From IMG/VR virus record IMGVR_UViG_3300007734_000513, positions 1 to 25,648 of that record: 25,648 nucleotides of DNA, one strand, 5' to 3'. Below are positions 12,146 to 25,527 of this stretch, piece by piece. Under the pieces are notes generated by a model, which saw nothing but the letters and a program-made list of their open reading frames with translations, ran no database searches and had not been told where the DNA came from. This DNA comes from a virus. How positions within the stretch are numbered: the stretch's first letter is position 1; every line of letters begins with the position of its first letter. A program made the translations under genes and the position numbers.

Positions 12146-14809
12146 ATGCCCTCATATTTACATCTTGCGTATCGACGCAACGCAAGGGCGGCTGCAAAAA
12201 ACTATACAGTTAAACCATCTGATAACCAAGAAGCAGTAAAAAAAGCTAGAGAAGATTTTAGTTTCTTTTGTGAGTATGTTGCTAATAAACCTCCAGCTTC
12301 TCATCATAAAGATTGGCATGGACACTTTGTAACAGGTGAAGATAGTGTCTGTTTAAAAAATATAGCCGGTCCTAATATTGATCTACTTGGTCCCCGTGGG
12401 CCATTAGCTGTATCTACACCGGTAGCTACTCCTAATGGATGGGTACCTATAGGTGAACTACAAGTTGGTGATATTGTCTTTTCTGAACATGGTCAATTAA
12501 CTGAAGTAGTAGGTATATCAGATTACGAAGAATCACTTACATGGGAAGTTGTCTTTACTGATGGCTCTTCTGTTCGTTGTGACGACCAACACCTATGGAA
12601 GGTGCGACGAATGGGAACAGACGGAAAAGGAGATTGGCGTAGCATGACACTTAATGAAATACGTACACAAAAAACAATAGGGATTAAAGGGAATGGTCGC
12701 CCTGGAGCGCTGACTCAAAGAATTACTGCAACTTGTGAACCAGGAGAAACACCTTGGTTAGACAGTAGAGGCTATCCTCGTTATCAGATTCCTGTCACAC
12801 AACCAGTTGAATATCCAGCAACAGAACTTCCTCTTGATCCATACTTATTAGGGGCATTGCTTGGTGATGGTTCTCTTAGTTCCAATAATCTTTCCTTGTG
12901 TAGTGCAGATCCAGAGATTGTTGAACGTTGTGCCTTAGGATTACCAGAAGATTATCGTTTTAAAAAAGTAGCAAAATATGGATATAATATCTCACATGTT
13001 AAAGGGGTTCTTGCTGGAGGAAAACCAAGTATTGTGCGAGAGATCCTAAAAACACTCGGGGTCTATGGTAAAACATCAATTGATAAGTTTATTCCTAAAT
13101 CTTATTTGACAGCATCGCTACCTGATCGAGAAGCCTTGCTACAAGGGCTGCTAGATACAGATGGTACTGTTGCATCTACAGGAGGGGTGTCGTTTTGTAC
13201 AACATCTACAGCTCTTGTTAGAGATGTAACAGAACTAGTTCAATCTCTCGGAGGGATAGCAACACAACGTGCGTCACAACTAAATACATATTTAAACAAA
13301 CATCAAGAGCGCGTACGTACGACAACACCGTCAGTTACTTTAGGTATTAAATTACCAGATAGCATTAAACCTTTTCACTTACATCGTAAAGCCCAGAGAT
13401 ATTCTCCTTGTACCAAGTATCTTCCTTGCCGCAGTATTAAAGATATTTGCCCATCAACAACAGAAAAAGTACGTTGTATTGAAGTAGCCAACACTTGTCA
13501 TACTTTTTTAACTAAAGATTATATTGTTAGTCACAATTCGGCAAAGTCAACGACCTTAGGTTTGTTTACTGCATGGGCTATTGGTGTACACACCACAGCT
13601 AAATTACCTTTACAAATTCTTTATCTTTCTTATACAGTTGAAATTGCACGTCCTAAATCAGCAGCAATTAAACGTATTATAGAAAGTCGTAAATATCAAG
13701 AAGTATTTCCGGCGGTCCGTTTATTAAAGAACGTAACAAGTAATGAATATTGGTCCATTGATCATAAATTTGCAGGCATTGATAACATCGGTGACGAGAT
13801 GTTTACTCTTTGTGCAGCTGGATTAAAAGGCTCTGTTACATCTAAACGTAGTCATTTATGTTTAATTGATGACTGTATAAAATCAGCAACAGATATAGCT
13901 AATCCTGATATACGTAAAGCAATGCAAGATAACTGGAATGCAGTTATCTCACCAACTATGTTTGAAGGAGGAAGAGCAATATGCTTAGGTACCAGATTTA
14001 GACATGATGATATACACGCTACTACTTTTAATGAACAAAATAACTGGCAACAAATTGTGTTGTCTGCTATCCAAACAGATCCTAAAACAGGGGATGAGAT
14101 TTCTTATTGGCCTGAAATGTGGTCATTGGACTACTTAAAAGAAAAGAAAAGGCAAGCACCTGTTGCATTTTCTTTTCAATACATGAATCAGATTGTTAGA
14201 CAAGGTGAATTATCCCTGGCGCCAGAGCTGATAGTAAAGGCGGAGATAGCAACTGAATTTGATACACTTGGTATAGGGGTAGATTTATCTGCCGGTATTA
14301 AAGAAAAGAATGACTACACCGTAATGGTCTTAGGTGGACGCATTGATGATCGTATTCATATCATTGATTACCGTAGGATACGAGCTATGGGTAACCTAGA
14401 AAAGCTAGATGAAATGAAAGAATTACTTAATGATTGGTCGATCATAGGAAAGGATGACAATGGAAACTACTTCCCAACCTTCTCTACTTGTGATATCTGG
14501 TCAGAAGCCGTCCAATACCAAGCTTCTCTCGAAGCCGACTTTAAGAGGATTTGCCTTAATGACGAAGGTCTGAACAACTTGATCTGGCACCCTGTCAAGG
14601 GATTCCGTGCAGACAAGCTGGCGCGGTTTAGGGGGATTATAGGCATGTTTGAAGAACGTAAAATAATCTTTAATCGTTTTCGGAACTTCACTAATCTCTT
14701 CGAGGAACTCACAAACTTCGGCGTGAGTAGTCATGATGATTGTGTGGATGCGTTGGTATGGCTAGTAAATGGATTGGCCAAAAAAGGAAAGCTCCAATTT
14801 GATTACTAG
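12146..14809 (+). CDS. terL: terminase large subunit containing an intein
   Basis: The packaging ATPase/nuclease that moves DNA into the prohead at the portal. The 887-residue precursor contains an intein at residues 86-464; splicing would give a 508-residue TerL, a normal size. The extein halves LLGPRG (80-85) and SAKST (465-469) join to the Walker A loop GPRGSAKST, a common terminase variant. Walker B is HLCLIDD (570-576) and coupling motif III is CLGTR (613-617). The RNase H-like nuclease shows an Asp in GVDLS (713) and the terminal HDDCVDAL motif (863-870). Without splicing the ATP-binding loop is split, so activity depends on the intein. The start ATG has no Shine-Dalgarno sequence; a weak TATATT box lies at 12119-12124. 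Confidence 0.92.
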   Translation: MPSYLHLAYRRNARAAAKNYTVKPSDNQEAVKKAREDFSFFCEYVANKPPASHHKDWHGHFVTGEDSVCLKNIAGPNIDLLGPRGPLAVSTPVATPNGWVPIGELQVGDIVFSEHGQLTEVVGISDYEESLTWEVVFTDGSSVRCDDQHLWKVRRMGTDGKGDWRSMTLNEIRTQKTIGIKGNGRPGALTQRITATCEPGETPWLDSRGYPRYQIPVTQPVEYPATELPLDPYLLGALLGDGSLSSNNLSLCSADPEIVERCALGLPEDYRFKKVAKYGYNISHVKGVLAGGKPSIVREILKTLGVYGKTSIDKFIPKSYLTASLPDREALLQGLLDTDGTVASTGGVSFCTTSTALVRDVTELVQSLGGIATQRASQLNTYLNKHQERVRTTTPSVTLGIKLPDSIKPFHLHRKAQRYSPCTKYLPCRSIKDICPSTTEKVRCIEVANTCHTFLTKDYIVSHNSAKSTTLGLFTAWAIGVHTTAKLPLQILYLSYTVEIARPKSAAIKRIIESRKYQEVFPAVRLLKNVTSNEYWSIDHKFAGIDNIGDEMFTLCAAGLKGSVTSKRSHLCLIDDCIKSATDIANPDIRKAMQDNWNAVISPTMFEGGRAICLGTRFRHDDIHATTFNEQNNWQQIVLSAIQTDPKTGDEISYWPEMWSLDYLKEKKRQAPVAFSFQYMNQIVRQGELSLAPELIVKAEIATEFDTLGIGVDLSAGIKEKNDYTVMVLGGRIDDRIHIIDYRRIRAMGNLEKLDEMKELLNDWSIIGKDDNGNYFPTFSTCDIWSEAVQYQASLEADFKRICLNDEGLNNLIWHPVKGFRADKLARFRGIIGMFEERKIIFNRFRNFTNLFEELTNFGVSSHDDCVDALVWLVNGLAKKGKLQFDY
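12401..13537 (+). mobile_element. intein with LAGLIDADG homing endonuclease in terL, class-3-like
   Basis: A 379-residue in-frame element (P86-N464 of the precursor) inside the Walker A loop. Block A is LAVSTPVATPNGWVPIGELQ followed by VGDIVF. Block B ends H149-L-W151, with Trp two residues after the His. Block F carries VRCIEV (Cys444). Block G is VSHN (461-464), followed by Ser +1. A Pro in position 1 instead of Cys/Ser/Ala, with the Trp and block F Cys, matches the class 3 mechanism known from mycobacteriophage DnaB inteins. Class 3 usually has Thr at G:5; here it is Ser462. Two dodecapeptide motifs, LLGALLGDG (234-242) and LLQGLLDTDG (331-340), mark a LAGLIDADG homing endonuclease, so the element may still be mobile. 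Confidence 0.9.
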
Positions 14810-16267: not shown

Positions 16268-18556
16268 GTGGACGCTAACTCTCGCCTAAAAGAAATTGTT
16301 GATTCCTATCTTGAGAAAGATGGTGGAGCAAATATTGACACAGGTATTGTTGCGTCTCACGTAGCACAAATGAAACTCTTTGGTATTCGCCAAGGGGTAG
16401 AATTTTTTCCTTCTCAAGATAACTTTGGTAATCAACGCAAAGATTTTGTCGATAGAGTACTTAAATACAACAGGATGGATACACGCCTAGATTCAATCTG
16501 GGAGTATTTCCTGTGTGATGGACAAGGTTTGTTTTATATTAGACCTACTGAGTCTAATTACCGACTTTACTTTTTTCGTCAACATGAATATCGTTCTTAC
16601 TATGGCATCAATGGTGAGTTAGAAGAAGTAATTATTATCTATAGTTATAAAGTAAGGCAGGGAACAGGCTTTAGCGATGGTGTTAACATTACCAATATCT
16701 CAGGTACTGCTATTACTGGACCACAAGGAGCCAAGCGATACATTAAATTATCGATTAAAGATAAGGTAATTGAAGAAACACATAGTGAAGGAGAGATGTC
16801 CTTTGACTTACCTAGTTATAATGTCCCAGGACGTACTCAAACATTCAGAAATACACTCGGATTTATTCCCTGTGTAGAAATATTTAATAGTCCTAAGGGG
16901 TTTTCTAACGAAGGAGTAGGTGAATTTGACGCTTTAGCCAATCATATTGTCACGCATGACGAAATGGTACGCACTATGCGTAAGAATGTACAGTTTTTTG
17001 GTAATCCAACCCTTCTCTCGTCAAGGCCTAAGACAGATCTGATGGAATCTGGGTCGGATTCAACGGTTCAACGTCCTTCTATCGCAGCAAATTCCGGTTT
17101 TACTGGATTAGGGGCCTTAAGTCAATCAAGATTTAAGTCTGATCCACTCTCTAGGGGTATGGATGGACAAATTAGGGTGCCTAGGGTGATTGCTAACCTG
17201 GAACCTAATGACCGTGTTGGCTATATTGTCCCAGATGCTATCACTGGTGACCAAAATAACTTTGCACGTCAGTATCGAGAAGAAATACGGACAGCTTTAG
17301 GGGGTGTAGACGATCTTTCTATCTCCGCTGGTATCACAGCAACAGAATACAAGTCATTATTCGGTCGTGTATCAGCAACATCTAAGAAAAAAGCAAATGC
17401 TATTTATACATATGGTATTTGTAGGTGTTTAGAGTTAATCATCTATCAAGAAGAGCGTTTGTTCCGTGATACTTTAGCTGCTGCCACAGGAATTGAAAAG
17501 CCAGTTGAACCAACAGAGAACGCATCCAAAGAAGAAATTGATTTATACGAAGCAAGTTTAAAAGGATTTGAAGAAAAAATTAAACAAATAATGAAGGCAT
17601 GTGTAGAGACACAACATATACCTACAGGAGTCATTGGCCTAATACCAGACGGGGATCTGACCATGCTTTGGCGTTGGTTAGGTCCTGTTTACGAAGACTC
17701 TACACAGGATATACTTAATAATTCTATCGTGGTACGTAACCTCCAAGAATTAGGTGTTGATAGTATTGAAGCACTGAAGTACCTCTTCCCGTCAAAAACG
17801 GATGAGGAGCGGGCCGCGATGTTATCGGGGTTTCCGTTCAGGATGGTCAACGAATTGCAAGGTGCTTACTCAGCTTTTGCAAAATTAGTGGGGGGCATGA
17901 TGCAGACCCCTCACCCGCAGTCACCAGATTTACCGATGGCTGCGGACCCACGTCTCGACCTTACACCTTATCTGTATCGCACCTTAGAAGCATTACAAAA
18001 GGAGATGAGTTATGCAGGACGCTACCGTCCAATCGATCCCACAGATGAGCCAAGTACCAACAGCAGTAGCACCAAGCAGCTACGTGGCAGTACCAGCGCC
18101 TCAGGCTCCAGCACAGAGCTACCAGGGACCGATCAATTACCAAGTGGGTACCAGCTACCCCCAAGCGGTGCCACAAGCACCTATCAGCTACCAATCAAGC
18201 CCTACTCAGTACGCCCCCCAATCCCAACCGGCGGCACCCCAGAGCAGCCCATGGGAATCGGCGTTCAACAAAGTGGTGGGTCTGCTGAGCGCACCAGTCC
18301 AATCCCCGTTCCAGGGTCAACCCTCGGCTCCGACGCCAACATACGCCCCGGCCAATTACGGTCAGACGTACAACGGCCAACCTATGCCCAGCTTGGGGAC
18401 GCAGACCTCGTATCCCAACCAGGAATACTCAGCCAATTATTCCCAAACCTCCTCCAGTCCCTCACTGGCGGACGTAGCGGATTACCTGGGCCTGAGCAAC
18501 GAAAGCCGCCAGGTGATCGACGCGTTCGGGGTAGAAGCACCAGCCGTCCTAAATAA
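16268..18556 (+). CDS. portal protein (762 aa) with long overprinted C-terminal tail
   Basis: Portal subunits form the dodecameric ring at one capsid vertex through which TerL pumps DNA. The call rests on position after terL and before a scaffold-like gene and the capsid gene, on size, and on a core typical of portals. That core has an N-terminal helical part, a beta wing around residues ~80-130 (WEYFLCDGQGLFYIRPTESN, YRSYYGINGELEEVIIIYSY), a middle with EEIRTALGGVDDLSISAGIT and TEYKSLFGRVSATSKKKANA, and a helical C-terminal domain to ~residue 580. The start is GTG 16268. Residues ~582-762 are Pro/Ser/Gly/Thr-rich, low in hydrophobics and probably disordered. They are encoded where another gene reads a different frame from 18012. 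The true end of the folded portal may thus be near residue 580. Confidence 0.78.
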   Translation: MDANSRLKEIVDSYLEKDGGANIDTGIVASHVAQMKLFGIRQGVEFFPSQDNFGNQRKDFVDRVLKYNRMDTRLDSIWEYFLCDGQGLFYIRPTESNYRLYFFRQHEYRSYYGINGELEEVIIIYSYKVRQGTGFSDGVNITNISGTAITGPQGAKRYIKLSIKDKVIEETHSEGEMSFDLPSYNVPGRTQTFRNTLGFIPCVEIFNSPKGFSNEGVGEFDALANHIVTHDEMVRTMRKNVQFFGNPTLLSSRPKTDLMESGSDSTVQRPSIAANSGFTGLGALSQSRFKSDPLSRGMDGQIRVPRVIANLEPNDRVGYIVPDAITGDQNNFARQYREEIRTALGGVDDLSISAGITATEYKSLFGRVSATSKKKANAIYTYGICRCLELIIYQEERLFRDTLAAATGIEKPVEPTENASKEEIDLYEASLKGFEEKIKQIMKACVETQHIPTGVIGLIPDGDLTMLWRWLGPVYEDSTQDILNNSIVVRNLQELGVDSIEALKYLFPSKTDEERAAMLSGFPFRMVNELQGAYSAFAKLVGGMMQTPHPQSPDLPMAADPRLDLTPYLYRTLEALQKEMSYAGRYRPIDPTDEPSTNSSSTKQLRGSTSASGSSTELPGTDQLPSGYQLPPSGATSTYQLPIKPYSVRPPIPTGGTPEQPMGIGVQQSGGSAERTSPIPVPGSTLGSDANIRPGQLRSDVQRPTYAQLGDADLVSQPGILSQLFPNLLQSLTGGRSGLPGPEQRKPPGDRRVRGRSTSRPK
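17999..18004 (+). promoter_or_regulatory. Shine-Dalgarno for overlapping gene at 18012
   Basis: AAGGAG within an AAAAGGAG run stands 7 nt before ATG 18012, inside the portal coding sequence. Because good ribosome binding sites are rare in this window, it is strong support that translation starts at 18012. Confidence 0.7.
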
Positions 18557-18980
18557 CTATGCTCTCCAACTGGAAAGCATGTTGGATAGTGCAGTTGCAT
18601 GGGGCTCTAAAGCCAGCGGTTTACTGCATGGCTACGCCAACTTTGCTGTAAATGAGCACCAAGAGAATCTCGCTTATAACGAAATTCTGACTAATCCTGA
18701 TGTACTGAGTGACTACACTTTGAAGTTCTTCGGTCCTGAAGGTCCTTATCCTGTATATGAAAGTGAGGGCGAATTGGAAACACCTGGTTATCGCACAGAG
18801 CAAGTAGTACCTGGGTATGGGAATTTCCCTGCACCTCCTGAGGCTGCTGGCCCACAACAACCCCAAAACTTCTGGGGTGGCTTCAATGAAATCATGGCAC
18901 GAGATCCCCAGAATGCCTGGCGTGTTCTCAACCAAGCTCAACCCAATACTGTAGCTAACAAGCTATTTGTAATGGAGTGA
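18012..18980 (+). CDS. scaffold-like capsid assembly protein (322 aa), overlaps portal by 545 nt
   Basis: ATG 18012 lies inside the portal gene in another frame and has an AAGGAG 7 nt upstream. Residues ~1-150 are Pro/Gln/Ser/Ala/Tyr-rich and probably disordered (VAVPAPQAPAQSYQGPINYQ). Residues ~155-235 are folded and helical (SLADVADYLGLSNESRQVID, LNNYALQLESMLDSAVAWG), followed by Pro-rich linkers and a C-terminal helix (RDPQNAWRVLNQAQPNTVAN). A disordered Pro/Gln-rich part plus helical segments, placed between portal and capsid genes, matches scaffolding proteins, which shape the prohead and then leave. No protease motif is seen. Amino-acid pattern and ribosome binding site make this the more convincing frame in the overlap. 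Confidence 0.72.
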   Translation: MQDATVQSIPQMSQVPTAVAPSSYVAVPAPQAPAQSYQGPINYQVGTSYPQAVPQAPISYQSSPTQYAPQSQPAAPQSSPWESAFNKVVGLLSAPVQSPFQGQPSAPTPTYAPANYGQTYNGQPMPSLGTQTSYPNQEYSANYSQTSSSPSLADVADYLGLSNESRQVIDAFGVEAPAVLNNYALQLESMLDSAVAWGSKASGLLHGYANFAVNEHQENLAYNEILTNPDVLSDYTLKFFGPEGPYPVYESEGELETPGYRTEQVVPGYGNFPAPPEAAGPQQPQNFWGGFNEIMARDPQNAWRVLNQAQPNTVANKLFVME

Positions 18981-19708: not shown

Positions 19709-20875
19709 GTGTTTATTGATACCGATTTTCCAAAAATCTTAGGTGCAGAACTTTACCGTCCTCACCCTGCTTACATCTGCGAGATGGCTGTAGAACCAGT
19801 AGTGGTTCACGACTTTACTCGTCAGCCTGGTCAAACCGTTCAACTTGATCGTTACAAATTCTGGGGCACTCCTGGTACTAAGGATAGCCGCGAACGTATT
19901 TCCGATCAAACCATTGGTACTGCTAACAGCCGTAACATCACTAAGGAAAAAGTTCTTGTGGTGCTTAAGGAATACACTGGCCCTGCGGATCCTTCTGATC
20001 CTACTCAGCCCAGTACCTTTAAGATTGCTCGTGAAACTCTGATTACTGCTCAGCGCATGTTGCTGGACACAGGTAATCTGAATATGTTCCACCAGTCTAT
20101 TGGCTCCCTTACACTTCTTGATGATTATCGTCGTTGGCGTGATCGTGTGTTTATTGATGAACTAGCCAAAGCAGAAGCTAATGGTGAAGCATCAACATCA
20201 CAAGGTGGTTATTACTTCCCAACTGGCGCTGCCAAGGATTCCAGTGGCCGTATTTCTTACACCACTGCTCAGTACACAGCTAATTCACAACAGTTCCACG
20301 TATCTACCGACCTGTTGAATGTAGTTAAGGATCTTCGTAAGCGCAACGTACCTACCTTCTCTGATGGTTTGTATCGTTGTATTTGCGATCCTACTTTCAT
20401 GATGCACTTGCGTCGTGATGCTGACTTCCGTGAAATTGCACGTTATTCAGGTAATCCTGGCCAAGGCATGTATATGTCTGGCAATCCCATGATGCCTAAT
20501 AATGCTAGCTTCTACCAAGGTCCTCAAGCGGGTCAAGGTTACTTCCTGGCTGGTGAACCTGTGATGCCTACTGGCGTTCAGTTTGAAGGTGTTAAATTCT
20601 ACGAATCTACCAACTTCCCAACCAAGAATATTACAGCTAGCTTTACTGATGCTCCTGCTTATACTTCCCAGGAAGTGGCCCAAGGTTTCTTCTTTGGTCC
20701 TCAAGCAGTAGGTGTTGGTGTAGGCGGTCCTAATGCTCAAGTTCTCATTAATAATAATGATGACTTTAGCCGCTTTATCATTCTCATCTGGCAACTGTAT
20801 GCTGGTTTTGAAATCCTGAACAAGGACTTTGTTACCACTGCTTACAGCTTCGTCAGCGATGACGGCGTTCTTTGA
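19709..20875 (+). CDS. major capsid protein, HK97-fold type (388 aa)
   Basis: The main shell protein of the phage head. Early sequence contains RQPGQTVQLDRYKFWGTPG and TIGTANSRNITKEKVLVVLK, an extended arm and beta region. A helix-rich region with RWRDRVFIDELAKAEANGE is the probable spine helix. The segment YRCICDPTFMMHLRRDADFR followed by EIARYSGNPGQ matches by eye the A-domain pattern common to many HK97-fold capsids, including N4 gp56-like ones. A Gly/Met/Pro-rich loop follows (MYMSGNPMMPNN). Size and position after a scaffold-like gene agree. The codons and GC are richer than in neighbouring genes, and the ribosome binding site is the strongest in the window despite a GTG start; both suggest high expression. 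No N-terminal delta-domain for cleavage is apparent. Confidence 0.82.
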   Translation: MFIDTDFPKILGAELYRPHPAYICEMAVEPVVVHDFTRQPGQTVQLDRYKFWGTPGTKDSRERISDQTIGTANSRNITKEKVLVVLKEYTGPADPSDPTQPSTFKIARETLITAQRMLLDTGNLNMFHQSIGSLTLLDDYRRWRDRVFIDELAKAEANGEASTSQGGYYFPTGAAKDSSGRISYTTAQYTANSQQFHVSTDLLNVVKDLRKRNVPTFSDGLYRCICDPTFMMHLRRDADFREIARYSGNPGQGMYMSGNPMMPNNASFYQGPQAGQGYFLAGEPVMPTGVQFEGVKFYESTNFPTKNITASFTDAPAYTSQEVAQGFFFGPQAVGVGVGGPNAQVLINNNDDFSRFIILIWQLYAGFEILNKDFVTTAYSFVSDDGVL

Positions 20876-20905: not shown

Positions 20906-21739
20906 ATGACTTATTTGACTTCCAAAAAGATTTACCCTGGCAACTGGGTAGAAGCTCTTAATGGCTGGTACAAAAACTTTGATTCCACTGGTGCTGGTGG
21001 AACTGCAGACGTATCCAAAGCTGGTCCTACATCTGTTCTAGCTATCCCTGGCTATCGTTATTTTCAGCAACGTGGTTATGTTCCTGTAACCTGGGTGTCT
21101 GGCGATTCTGCTACTTATGGTCAAACCATGAGTGTTATCATCCCATCTCCTTACAGGCAAGATGATACCCGTACTGATATTACCGGAATGGTAATCAGTG
21201 GTAACTCCACCCAAGCAGGCTATGTTTACCGCGCTGCAATCTCCGTTGGTTCTGGCTGGGGAGACAATCGTGTTGCTTCTGGTGTTTATAACACTACAGG
21301 TAATGTAATTGCCTTTGGTCGTGACAGTTCTGGGCCAGTTGCTGCTTCTGGTGAATCAGTTGCTGCTGCTGTGTTATCTTCTACTGTTTCAGGTGAAGGT
21401 GCAGGTACTGTTTATTTTGCAGGTGGTAGTCAAGCCTTTGGTTCAGTTCCTGTATTTATTGGACCTGCCTCAGGTCTACAAGTTACAGCTGGTTCAGGTT
21501 TCGTAAACAGTGGCGCTGTATACAAACAGATCACTTCTGCTACAACCTTTAAGGTATACTCTAAAGCTTCTGGTGATGCCACTGCTGTTGCAGGCGGTGT
21601 GTACATCTCACAAGCAGACAAAAATGCTGGTTTAACCGGCTATCTGTTTGTGGAAGTTTGCTATCTGGTTCCTGATAACGCCCCTGATTACAGTGATTTG
21701 GAAGCTTATCTTAATAATCGGACTGTCAGTTCGACTTAA
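20906..21739 (+). CDS. probable head decoration or capsid-associated protein (277 aa)
   Basis: Immediately follows the capsid gene with its own AAGGAG and a -10-like box. The N-terminal ~100 residues contain aromatic motifs (KKIYPGNWVEALNGWYKNFD, IPGYRYFQQRGYVPVTWVSG). The C-terminal ~170 residues are almost wholly short beta strands separated by Gly/Ser/Thr/Ala turns (STQAGYVYRAAISVGSGW, AGTVYFAGGSQAFGSVPVF). Strand-rich, Gly/Ser-rich proteins encoded next to the capsid gene are typically decoration proteins that bind the mature shell; a tail-tube or major tail protein is the main alternative. Its GC and codon use match those of the capsid gene, again suggesting abundant expression. Confidence 0.6.
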   Translation: MTYLTSKKIYPGNWVEALNGWYKNFDSTGAGGTADVSKAGPTSVLAIPGYRYFQQRGYVPVTWVSGDSATYGQTMSVIIPSPYRQDDTRTDITGMVISGNSTQAGYVYRAAISVGSGWGDNRVASGVYNTTGNVIAFGRDSSGPVAASGESVAAAVLSSTVSGEGAGTVYFAGGSQAFGSVPVFIGPASGLQVTAGSGFVNSGAVYKQITSATTFKVYSKASGDATAVAGGVYISQADKNAGLTGYLFVEVCYLVPDNAPDYSDLEAYLNNRTVSST

Positions 21740-21773: not shown

Positions 21774-22184
21774 ATGCTTTATCAACACACCAAAACCGGC
21801 GCTCGGGTCAAAGTTATTAGTGAATGGGATAACGGCGAATGGTTCATGGTCGAAGATCAGGACGGTCGCCTTTATACCGTATACAAGACTGAGATCAAAC
21901 CGGATGAGTCAGCCACTAAAACGGTTAAGACTCTACAGGTAAAAGATAAAGCAGCAAAGGAAGCGCCCCGTGCTTTTCCCCCAGATCATCGCTTGAATAT
22001 TAATTCAGCAACCGCTCAAATGATTGCTGACCATATTAAAGGGATTGGTCTCAAGACAGCACGTGAGATTAAAGACATACAGATGAGTCTTTCTGGTGAA
22101 AAGTTCAGCAATCTAGATCAGTTAAAACAGATCAAACGTGTTGATTGGGACTCTGTATTTGCTGCTAACCTGGTACGCGTGTGA
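21774..22184 (+). CDS. ComEA-like helix-hairpin-helix protein (136 aa)
   Basis: Two parts are visible. Residues ~5-45 form a small beta unit of SH3/KOW character (GARVKVISEWDNGEWFMVED, then GRLYTVYKTEIKPD). After a charged linker, residues ~72-136 form a ComEA-type tandem helix-hairpin-helix. It begins RLNINSATAQMIADHIKGIG (NINxA plus the GIG hairpin loop), then KTAREIKDI, then EKFSNLDQLKQIKRVDWDSV. The family (ComEA, T2SK, Tex-like HhH) binds double-stranded DNA non-specifically. The gene sits among virion genes and is followed by a strong terminator, so it may act at the head-tail junction or on packaged DNA. A non-virion competence or repair role is not excluded. Confidence 0.72.
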   Translation: MLYQHTKTGARVKVISEWDNGEWFMVEDQDGRLYTVYKTEIKPDESATKTVKTLQVKDKAAKEAPRAFPPDHRLNINSATAQMIADHIKGIGLKTAREIKDIQMSLSGEKFSNLDQLKQIKRVDWDSVFAANLVRV

Positions 22185-22218: not shown

Positions 22219-22240
22219 AGAATTGAAATAAAGTAGTAAA

Positions 22241-22972
22241 ATGGCAAACTCAGGTGGTAGGTTCTTTGTAGGAAATATTGGCAGTACTGGTACAGCTACT
22301 GGCCCTCATATTCATAAATACGTTAAAGATTTAAAGACAGGTTCTTATATTGATCCATCGACAATTAAAAGCGCTTTAACCGGGATTCAGATCGGAGAGA
22401 AAAGAACTCCTTTGGTTAGACGTACCTCTACGGGTGGTTTTGAGTGGAATCCAGATACAGGATTAGTAGTTACCTCACCGTTTGGTAAAAGGACAGCACC
22501 AACGGCAGGAGCATCGACTGATCATAAAGGCATCGATTTTGGTGGCGCAGCTGGAACACCAGTTTATTTACAAGGTTATGGTAAAGCATTACCTGTACCA
22601 TCAGCAGGTGGTTACGGTAACTTAATGACGTTTAGAACAGCAGATAATAAATATGAATTAGGTTTTGGTCATATGAGTAAGCTGGGACCAGAAGCGCAGG
22701 TATATGCATCAAATTTAAATTCAAAGCCAACAGCACCTGCATTACCGCCTTCTGATTATGTTACTTATAATCAAGGTAAACAAGAAGGGCAAGGGATAGG
22801 AGCATTAGCAACATTAGGATTACTAAATACACTATTTGGTCAAGCCAAAAAAGATAGAAGTAGTTCAATGGGTTTATATGGAGATTTAATGGGTTCTTTA
22901 TTAAAACCAAAAAGTGATCCGACTACTGATTTTCTAATGAGTTATATGATGCAAAATCCGTATGAAGCATGA
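22241..22972 (+). CDS. M23-type peptidase with circularly permuted motif order (243 aa)
   Basis: The protein carries the complete set of M23 (lysostaphin/LytM) elements, but in swapped order. Residues 7-39 (GRFFVGNIGSTGTATGPHIH... DP) match the C-terminal end of a normal M23 domain, including the HxH pair H23/H25. Residues ~75-156 match its beginning: TSPFGKRTAP (78-87), the zinc motif H95-KGI-D99, GTPV (105-108), GGYGN (123-127) and GHMSKL (143-148) with H144. All expected zinc ligands and active-site histidines are present. A Gly-rich, flexible C-terminal ~85 residues follows. M23 enzymes cut peptidoglycan cross-bridges, so a cell-wall penetrating virion enzyme is likely. It is the first gene after a terminator, with a TAGAAT box (22218-22223) 23 nt before the ATG. 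Confidence 0.75.
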   Translation: MANSGGRFFVGNIGSTGTATGPHIHKYVKDLKTGSYIDPSTIKSALTGIQIGEKRTPLVRRTSTGGFEWNPDTGLVVTSPFGKRTAPTAGASTDHKGIDFGGAAGTPVYLQGYGKALPVPSAGGYGNLMTFRTADNKYELGFGHMSKLGPEAQVYASNLNSKPTAPALPPSDYVTYNQGKQEGQGIGALATLGLLNTLFGQAKKDRSSSMGLYGDLMGSLLKPKSDPTTDFLMSYMMQNPYEA

Positions 22973-23017: not shown

Positions 23018-23479
23018 GTGCAGCTATCTGATTTTGACAAAAGTAGAGTAAGGTACCATCTAGGTTATTTTACTGTTTCTATTCCAGCAGGAGACTACGC
23101 CCGGCTGGAAGAAGCAATGAATACTATACCTGATTCTTATTTCTACAATAAGATTACTATTCAGGTCGGTCGTTGTGATACAGCAGAAAAGAAAACTGAA
23201 GTTGCAAGTTCTCCTTCTACTAGGATTGAAAGTATTCTTGGAGACGTAGACCGTACTATTCGATCTTCTAATGCAAAAGAAGCTCTTAAAGTATGGGATG
23301 AAATATACTTGTATGAAACAAATCGACTAGCAATGATTCTTTATGTACCAAATTATAAAGATCCATTCCAAGCTCGATATCGTTACGAACGTTCAGGTGC
23401 TGAATATATTCAAGCATTACCAGGGCCTGCTGATACTGCCGTAGGTAGTAATCTTTATCTTCACGTAAACCACAGGTAG
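23018..23479 (+). CDS. neck / head-tail connector type protein (153 aa)
   Basis: Begins at GTG 23018; nearby ATGs at 23002 and 23005 are out of frame. The N-terminus, LSDFDKSRVRYHLGYFTVSI then PAGDYARLEEAMNTIPDSYF, resembles from memory a conserved family of marine phage head-tail connector proteins with an RYHLGY...PAGDRARLEEAM...I signature. The middle is helical (TRIESILGDVDRTIRSSNAK) and includes the ETNRLAMILYVPNYKDPF motif. The C-terminal ~30 residues are polar. Size (~150 aa) and lack of membrane segments fit a neck protein that closes the portal after packaging. The next gene begins 4 nt after the stop. Confidence 0.55.
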   Translation: MQLSDFDKSRVRYHLGYFTVSIPAGDYARLEEAMNTIPDSYFYNKITIQVGRCDTAEKKTEVASSPSTRIESILGDVDRTIRSSNAKEALKVWDEIYLYETNRLAMILYVPNYKDPFQARYRYERSGAEYIQALPGPADTAVGSNLYLHVNHR

Positions 23480-24774: not shown

Positions 24775-25527
24775 ATGGCACCTAACATTAATAATCAATT
24801 TGGTATCCCAAGAGAGGTTTTTAAAAACATACTCCGGGTAGCATCCGCAGAATCAGGCAATCCAGTCACAGGAGCTAACCCTGGCACTGTGGCTTCGATG
24901 CTTAATCGTTATTACAGTCCTAGTTATGGAAGTAACGTGAATAAATGGTTGATTCCAGGGCAATATGCCGTAATGGAAAAACCAAATTTCAGTAGAACGG
25001 ATCCTTCACGTGCTGTTTCTTATTACAGTTCTCCTACTGGACAACAAGAACTTTTAAAAACAGGACTAGCTCTCCGTGGAGCAACTGATTTTCGATCTAC
25101 GTCTTACTTAAAAGATACTGGTAATTTGTTTAAGTATCAAGATAATTTAATTCCTGCAATGGTTGGAGGAGTGCGTAAGTATTTAACACCTAAAGAATTA
25201 CAAAGTACAGGTGCTAAACCAGATTACAGTGAAAATACTTTTTTTAATGAAACTAAAAGACCAGCACCAGCGAAATGGTGGGAGAAGTATAGTGATCAAT
25301 CAGTAGTCCCCGGAGTTGCTCCACCTGTGCAATCAGCACTAGAAACAGCACCACCTGACGTAAAGGCAAAAGTGTTAGCCGGTAATTTATTTGGAGGAAT
25401 GACCTTAGAAAATATTATGAAACAAGACATACAAGACGACCTTTTAACTGAGTTGATTCAACCTGAAGAAGATAAGACCAACTTATTTGCTCAACTTTTG
25501 AATCAAACTAGACCATATTACAGTTGA
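24775..25527 (+). CDS. SleB-like cell-wall hydrolase domain protein (250 aa)
   Basis: The N-terminal ~70 residues resemble the SleB / lysozyme-like hydrolase fold. There is a helix with VASAESGNP (22-30; candidate catalytic Glu26), a spacer containing TVASMLNR (38-45; the A..LNR motif of SleB enzymes), and NKWLIPGQYAVMEK (56-69; the GQY/GQF motif). The rest is Ser/Tyr/Thr/Pro-rich and may bind partners (AKWWEKYSDQ near 162-171), with an acidic helical tail (LLTELIQPEEDKTNLFAQLL). Such enzymes cleave the glycan backbone of peptidoglycan. No signal peptide is present, consistent with a virion-borne enzyme and not a secreted lysin. The identification is by pattern alone; a non-catalytic structural descendant is possible. 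Confidence 0.55.
   Translation: MAPNINNQFGIPREVFKNILRVASAESGNPVTGANPGTVASMLNRYYSPSYGSNVNKWLIPGQYAVMEKPNFSRTDPSRAVSYYSSPTGQQELLKTGLALRGATDFRSTSYLKDTGNLFKYQDNLIPAMVGGVRKYLTPKELQSTGAKPDYSENTFFNETKRPAPAKWWEKYSDQSVVPGVAPPVQSALETAPPDVKAKVLAGNLFGGMTLENIMKQDIQDDLLTELIQPEEDKTNLFAQLLNQTRPYYS

Follow-up and report, generated by a model that had tools for sequence, protein, structure and literature searches.

The virus record IMGVR_UViG_3300007734_000513, a stretch of 25,648 bases which as a whole is called the window here, stems from a freshwater cyanobacterial phage and contains at position 22241–22972 on the plus strand a gene whose product carries an M23 (LytM/lysostaphin-type) domain with its two parts in exchanged order. 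The segment GSTGTATGPHIH with H23 and H25 comes ahead of SPFGKR...HKGID with H95 and D99, which in turn is followed by GHMSKL with H144. The protein is probably a circularly permuted M23 zinc endopeptidase that rebuilds fold and zinc site within one chain, is carried in the virion and is used in entry. A genuine circular permutant had been proposed in an earlier sequence-only reading of this DNA. The proposal is now supported by the order of the profile matches, by a rotation scan with canonical controls, by the conservation of the order among relatives and by a confident single-domain model.

Order of the two domain parts

In LytM/lysostaphin peptidases the HxxxD motif lies ahead of the HxH motif. 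The window protein does not follow the linear M23 order HxxxD – His – HxH but has HxH – HxxxD – His, and all five active-site residues (H23, H25, H95, D99 and H144) are present. The gene is a real open reading frame (ORF) of 243 amino acids with an ATG start. Since the reading frame opens at position 22232 after a stop codon (TAA, 22229–22231), three codons ahead of the ATG, the same frame cannot hide a further domain upstream of the gene.

The Pfam profile PF01551 matches the window protein with 37 bits (gathering cut-off 28.7) in two stretches, the best of which comprises residues 94–148 only. A phmmer search of the PDB matched 17 chains, and in all five alignments shown (3slu, 6muk, 9m7n, 6smk and 5j1l) the protein matches the canonical M23 chain as two pieces in inverted order. 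With 3slu, residues 64–148 are aligned to 215–298 and residues 5–29 to 306–330; with 9m7n, residues 72–146 are aligned to 784–861 and residues 10–40 to 877–907. The same arrangement is found with a canonical profile which we built from 62 bacterial M23 domains of canonical order. Residues 71–148 (22451–22684, plus strand, with H95, D99 and H144) are the counterpart of the first two thirds of the canonical domain and match columns 7–83 with 59.9 bits. Residues 10–41 (22268–22363, plus strand, VGNIGSTGTATGPHIH...DPS, with H23 and H25) are the counterpart of the last third, match columns 97–126 with 17.0 bits and are covered by the second phmmer stretches as well. The gap between both matches, residues 42–70 (22364–22450, plus strand), is modeled with high pLDDT and would be the linker between the former C- and N-termini. 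Both pieces are inverted in 35 of the 36 targets compared to this profile; in the remaining one, from phage S-EIV1, the first-two-thirds piece alone exceeds 3 bits. The ORF, the motifs and the profile pieces thus confirm what had been read from the sequence, namely that the zinc and catalytic residues are kept while their order is rotated.

When the canonical profile was rotated in four-column steps and the best single-domain score was taken, the mean of the 36 targets rose from 53.8 to 60.0 bits for a cut at column 84 and was 59.4 bits at column 88. For the window protein, rotation at column 88 raises the score from 59.9 to 70.1 bits and yields a single match over residues 10–148, so that this protein has both parts once, in rotated order and with a better rotated fit. 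The mean full-sequence score is 69.3 bits unrotated and 70.9–71.1 bits at the best cuts; it is lower when the cut crosses the motifs. The sequence-only reading had proposed such a HMMER comparison; inverted pieces are obtained with the canonical profile and one domain with the rotated profile.

Proteins of canonical order behave in the opposite way. The canonical M23 proteins of the cyanophages ACG-2014f (82.6 to 48.9 bits) and S-PM2 (p208, 81.4 to 57.3 bits) lose on rotation, and 35 of 35 full canonical cellular M23 domains score lower with the rotated profile. In addition, the two parts were scored separately. The last-third profile piece matches residues 11–40 with 24.2 bits, while the highest score in 5,000 shuffled versions of the protein is 11.8 bits and that in the other 394 reading frames of the window (at least 30 amino acids) is 4.2 bits. 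The first-two-thirds piece matches residues 71–148 with 64.4 bits, compared to 10.8 bits (best of 5,000 shuffles) and 4.8 bits (best other frame). Pfam's own M23 profile was also applied to six related records. In four of them its last third (positions 69–96, or 67–96 in record G006) is found upstream of its first part (2–55, or 2–68 in record G005); one further record shows 2–55 alone. The Pfam cut-off is passed in two of the six records.

Predicted fold and position of the cut

An AlphaFold2 model of residues 1–160, computed with 35 aligned sequences, shows a single compact domain with a mean pLDDT of 90.5 and a pTM of 0.86. In the model of the full protein the tail of residues 160–243 has mostly pLDDT values below 50. 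The high pTM means that the N-terminal piece is confidently placed relative to the rest of the domain; it would probably occupy the canonical place, with H25 beside H95 and D99. In a structural comparison with VIA-align, eight M23 entries were found with Z 4.7–5.9 and a root mean square deviation (rmsd) of 2.6–3.6 Å over 84–91 residues, and no unrelated row exceeded 2.7. The best rows are lysostaphin (4qpb, Z 5.9, 2.6 Å, 89 residues) and EnpA (6smk, Z 5.8, 2.8 Å, 87 residues), where rows within Z 1 count as tied. The aligner is sequential and its candidates were the 1,000 best chains of Foldseek; seven of the eight M23 rows lie within model residues 42–155, and one is listed from residue 4. 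A Foldseek search of predicted viral structures yielded three matches with E below 0.001 and a fourth with 0.0019. As each of them extends over 158–174 alignment columns, that is near full length, these proteins have the same sequence order as the window protein. The best match is an unnamed entry, and two of the four could be read as DNA. Judging from equal length and name, the BFVD entries L0CQF1 (1,000 amino acids) and H6WFX6 (997 amino acids) presumably correspond to P60 gp33 and to S-TIM5 AEZ65701, which are described below.

The window protein leaves profile columns 84–96 (VSVGQTVSQGQKI in the consensus) unmatched. These columns form the hairpin that connects the catalytic-histidine strand to the strand preceding HxH, and in some relatives they are matched in part, for example in locus L070 up to column 94. 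We suggest that the new termini would lie in this hairpin, between the strand equivalent to that of H144 and the HxH strand, and that the old termini would be joined by the linker of about 30 residues. With a cut in the hairpin both domain ends would come close together, and such adjacent ends would suit insertion into the rod of a tape measure protein. By eye, the M23 hairpin resembles the GD-box-like motif reported for HABAS barrel-sandwich domains (PMC11515920), which the same paper describes as a group with topologies related by circular permutation. HABAS is a small four-stranded domain inserted in many proteins, and the part of that report available to us does not describe a permuted M23 peptidase.

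Compared to the M23 family (PF01551; lysostaphin, EnpA, ShyA, NMB0315) the window protein is homologous in both pieces, has the same zinc and catalytic residues and the same predicted sub-structure over residues 43–155. It differs in the rotated order, in the unmatched hairpin columns 84–96 and in the joined old termini. A precedent is found in another group of peptidoglycan hydrolases, the NlpC/P60 enzymes, for which circular permutation is known (PMC3142127, PMC6403190, as far as these sources were accessible); their fold is unrelated, being that of papain-like cysteine peptidases. The permuted endopeptidases mentioned in the accessible part of PMC12667903 are NlpC/P60 enzymes too, and the main text of a review on M23 (PMC9662197), to the extent available, contains no word beginning with "permut". 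The sequence-only reading knew of no described permuted M23 enzyme. No such description was found either among the titles and abstracts of the literature searched, in which subscription papers are mostly missing, so that an earlier report is possible. As far as this literature goes, circular permutation is new for M23, whereas the enzyme family itself is known.

Rotated order in phages and the search for a cellular origin

The window protein was aligned with 24 sequences that are 34–93% identical to it (alignment A1, 25 sequences). H23, H95, D99 and H144 are invariant in this alignment, and the position of H25 is H in 23 sequences and D in two. In codons 1–42 the rate dN is below dS in 11 of 11 equal-length homologues (for example 0.010 and 0.334 in comparison with L012). 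Four scans of viral contigs provided further relatives, two of them complete with 61 and 45 loci and two with the best 80 of 436 and the best 80 of 140 relatives. The ORFs from these loci that match the four queries at 1e-8 amount to 218, namely 131 short ones (89 distinct sequences; the window copy and S-EIV1 are counted, and some contigs occur in duplicate) and 87 long ones (70 distinct sequences). Only proteins of rotated order served as queries, but canonical domains are still picked up through one piece.

Among the 131 short ORFs the motif TG(P/A/S)Hx(H/D) stands ahead of HxGxD in 127. Three more (L014, L068 and L069) have SGPH or NGPH and show the rotated order by eye, and L053 ends before HxGxD, behind the N-terminal motif. 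Neither a normal-order domain nor a second HxH behind HxGxD was seen among these 131 relatives (no "canonical" and no "mixed" case). A homologue with a normal-order M23 domain, which according to the sequence-only reading would speak against permutation, is thus absent from this set. At the position of the last zinc ligand, 100 short ORFs have His and 31 have Asp. The long ORFs are rotated in 81 of 87 cases and canonical in six, the latter being three contigs fetched twice. As the rotated long ORFs mostly stem from the query with the tape measure protein of Acinetobacter phage R3177 and are mutually close, they represent one lineage and not 81 independent cases. A canonical M23 domain elsewhere in the phage that would supply the missing half was rejected, as in the six related records, which may be incomplete, all PF01551 matches at E 0.01 lie within the permuted gene. 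One contig of 85 kb (IMGVR_UViG_3300034062_004592; L039 and L046) has the permuted gene twice, in slightly differing versions near its two ends.

The search for the rotated order in phages, likewise suggested by the sequence-only reading, showed that it recurs in the small relatives as well as in tape measure proteins and internal virion proteins. The S-EIV1 protein AHV82231 (KJ410740, annotated as "peptidase M23 family") resembles the window protein in its syntenic position and rotated order; it has GAHLD in place of GPHIH, and the annotation is silent on the order. The tape measure proteins of the Acinetobacter phage R3177 (1,436 amino acids) and the Moraxella phage Mcat23 (1,462 amino acids, annotated as "tail protein") carry a rotated M23 domain with an HLD motif in mid-protein, detected as one contiguous match of the A3 profile, which includes R3177-like rows. 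Rotation lifts their scores from 54.9 to 72.8 bits (R3177, whose Pfam M23 score is below the cut-off) and from 53.6 to 69.7 bits (Mcat23). In a highly diverged form the rotated order also recurs in internal virion proteins of P60-like cyanopodoviruses. P60 gp33 (1,000 residues) has GPHLD at 880, GVDF at 941 and FVHG at 992, behind a tail-lysozyme-like domain that is itself below the Pfam cut-off. Its relatives in S-CBP1 and DSL-LC07 have clearer motifs, with FLHG three residues from the ends, and in this group the chain ends 3–5 residues past the last histidine motif. These proteins have little or no HMMER support; P60 gp33 is unmatched by every HMMER profile used (best domain at most 0.9 bits) and is included because of its Foldseek match, a partial profile-profile match and the motifs recognized by eye. 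The profile-profile comparison for the P60 type gave a probability of 87.8 with three sequences and query columns 9–116 only.

A different arrangement is present in the virion protein AEZ65701 of cyanophage S-TIM5 (L351, 7229–10222), which has GAHLH at 536, HTGVD at 591 and FLAHL at 637. Positions 45–79 of the Pfam M23 profile additionally match residues 430–464, ahead of the rotated set, so that the M23 pieces follow each other as middle, last, first, middle and then the tail lysozyme domain PF18013. This is what a tandem duplication trimmed at its front would leave, although it concerns one protein group with weak scores: in direct HMMER comparison the rotated set scores weakly, rotation lifts it slightly from 5.8 to 13.3 bits, and the search of the S-TIM5 genome with the A3 profile gave no match. 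Relatives of the S-TIM5 M23 stretch occur in S-TIM61 and S-TIM66.

A cellular origin of the rotated order was considered and rejected. Among the best 80 loci of 472 relatives on cellular contigs, 62 are canonical by motif, 17 have no readable HxH and one (L225) is a cut piece of the phage family; 13 of the 17 have a second match downstream, as in canonical domains, and four have one match only. In the phylum of genome G001 (398 genomes) 46 genomes matched A3 at 1e-12 and none of the matches started before profile position 29. In the phylum of genome G002 (200 genomes) 16 matched, namely G002 and 15 genomes already among the matches of the other phylum. The 36 loci taken from both searches (L312–L347) comprise 35 full canonical domains scoring higher unrotated and a phage piece in G002 (L346). 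As a lone last-third piece would miss the threshold of 1e-12, these searches detect whole permutants or first-two-thirds pieces only. Within these loci no cellular M23 domain of readable order is rotated. G002 is a Lake Lanier metagenome-assembled genome in which pieces of the permuted gene lie on two contigs (L225 and L311), one of them beside downstream genes like those of the window; probably a contig of phage origin was assigned to a bacterial bin here.

Function and gene neighbourhood

By analogy to LytM, from which we take these roles, H95, D99 and H25, a position that is H or D in relatives, would be the ligands of a zinc ion and H23 and H144 the catalytic histidines, so that the zinc site would be rebuilt within one chain. 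As the gene lies in the head module and relatives are part of tape measure and internal virion proteins, the protein is most likely carried in the virion. The conservation of the active site, the homology to M23 and the place behind the head genes together suggest a virion-carried peptidoglycan endopeptidase for entry, which would bind zinc and cut peptidoglycan locally during DNA entry. Residues 160–243 (22718–22969, plus strand) form a fast-changing, partly helical tail, in which dN exceeds that of residues 43–160 in 10 of 11 comparisons; this tail might be a segment for attachment to the virion.

Nevertheless, several results weigh against this interpretation. The N-terminal pieces in the phmmer alignments are individually weak (i-Evalue 0.037 to 5.9), the Pfam last-third matches (E 0.003–0.006) are below the cut-off, and S-EIV1, one of the six related records, has no Pfam M23 match at E 0.01 and none at E 5 either. 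Rotation barely changes the scores of S-EIV1 (45.4 to 45.6 bits), S-CBP1 (12.4 to 12.9 bits) and DSL-LC07 (8.4 to 9.0 bits); in effect one profile piece matches in these three proteins, and their scores do not indicate a better rotated fit. Concerning the fold, the VIA-align Z values are all below 8, a range flagged as common arrangements, and apply to the 43–155 part only; the weight of this result lies in the top rows being all M23. Foldseek with the full-length model found no match in the PDB at E 0.001 (best E 0.27), which we take as expected for a sequential search with a model that has a long disordered tail and not as evidence on the fold. The viral Foldseek matches have TM-scores of 0.67–0.48 and an rmsd of 6.2–8.2 Å. 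Finally, those members that have Asp for the last zinc His may differ in metal binding or be inactive.

This last point, together with the degenerate HxxxD region of P60 gp33, whose score is near zero with all profiles used, and the faster divergence of the permuted gene compared to the adjoining head protein and HHH genes, would fit a genuine permutant which is no enzyme and instead serves in structure or binding, as the LytM factors without catalytic activity do. We regard this as unlikely: the window protein has all five active-site residues, four of them are invariant in A1, and Asp is also a possible metal ligand. Slightly less likely still is an endolysin acting at the end of infection instead of in the virion. 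Seven of the 19 matched PHROGs are labelled endolysin, five of the best six among them, and comparison of 13 other proteins of the window to PHROGs, to Pfam or to both revealed no lysis family; this covers a part of the ORFs, and the window itself is a fragment. Against this reading, the gene sits behind head genes in S-EIV1-like contigs, and relatives form part of tape measure proteins and of internal virion proteins.

It is also conceivable that the protein forms a domain-swapped dimer in which the HIH segment at the N-terminus of one subunit is part of the active site of the other, so that the sites are canonical but shared. The models made are of the monomer only and leave room for this; however, the monomer model is compact and confident, and the linker has the length required for a single chain to fold by itself, which makes a swap quite improbable. 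We give hardly any credit to an N-terminal motif that arose by chance or as a duplicate before an incomplete M23 domain. Apart from the lack of a C-terminal HxH piece nothing was found in its favour, and chance is ruled out by the shuffle and other-frame scores given above. In addition, 130 of 131 small relatives retain the motif and the remaining one is truncated behind it, codons 1–42 have dN below dS, and the model is of high confidence.

Returning to the virion-carried endopeptidase, we can tentatively place it in a wider frame, though we hold this broader scheme to be rather doubtful. The rotated M23 domain might be an old, phage-specific class of entry enzymes spread over head-module, tape measure and internal virion proteins which arose via tandem duplication and trimming, with S-TIM5 as a possible surviving intermediate. 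The cut in the hairpin would set the ends side by side for looping into, or hanging on, long rod-like proteins that are ejected. The permutation itself may give the enzyme another mode of attachment to the virion. M23 is among the major families of peptidoglycan hydrolases, and the matched solved structures all have one motif order; a natural permutant in several phage groups would mean enzymes with different attachment points. The permuted order helps to explain why M23 is half annotated in phage proteins, and it allows one to test how phages accommodate a cell-wall enzyme in proteins passing the tail or portal.

In S-EIV1-like cyanophages the permuted gene is part of the head module. In the window the late genes follow each other as large terminase, phrog_20475 virion structural protein (by size and position it might be the portal), major head protein, a D-like protein, a helix-hairpin-helix (HHH) protein, the permuted gene and phrog_29158. 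All of the following neighbours are on the plus strand. The major head protein gene (19709–20875; phrog_1357, 7e-17) has a conserved order with its neighbours. The conserved neighbour at 20906–21739 is weakly similar to the lambda head decoration protein D (PF02924, E=0.0036, below the cut-off), and the HHH gene at 21774–22184 (PF12836, E=3e-5, just below the cut-off) is immediately upstream of the permuted gene; the phrog_29158 gene (23018–23479, 4e-76) is immediately downstream. The order from the head protein to phrog_29158 is kept in 21 of 29 loci compared, S-EIV1 (L062) included. Two loci (L088 and L225) start at or inside the permuted gene and have the order preserved from there on downstream, five of a TGPHLD subgroup (L182, L184, L190, L196 and L209) have phrog_29158 and extra sequence between the HHH and the permuted gene, and one, from an Acinetobacter phage (L063), has the domain in common only.

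Some further features of the window were noted. The large terminase gene (12146–14809) contains an insert matching LAGLIDADG-like homing endonucleases (PF14528, PF05204) and, weakly and below the cut-off, Hint; this insert is probably an intein. A protein of 250 amino acids encoded at 24775–25527 has no Pfam match at E 5, and its N-terminal part (VASAESGNP...NRYYSPSYG) looks like a cell wall hydrolase by eye. The phrog_20475 virion gene (16268–18556, 3.9e-289) shares 545 bases with the next ORF (18012–18980), which is read in another frame; in homologous loci, for example L029, either frame has matches over the overlap, so that this is a long conserved out-of-frame overlap.
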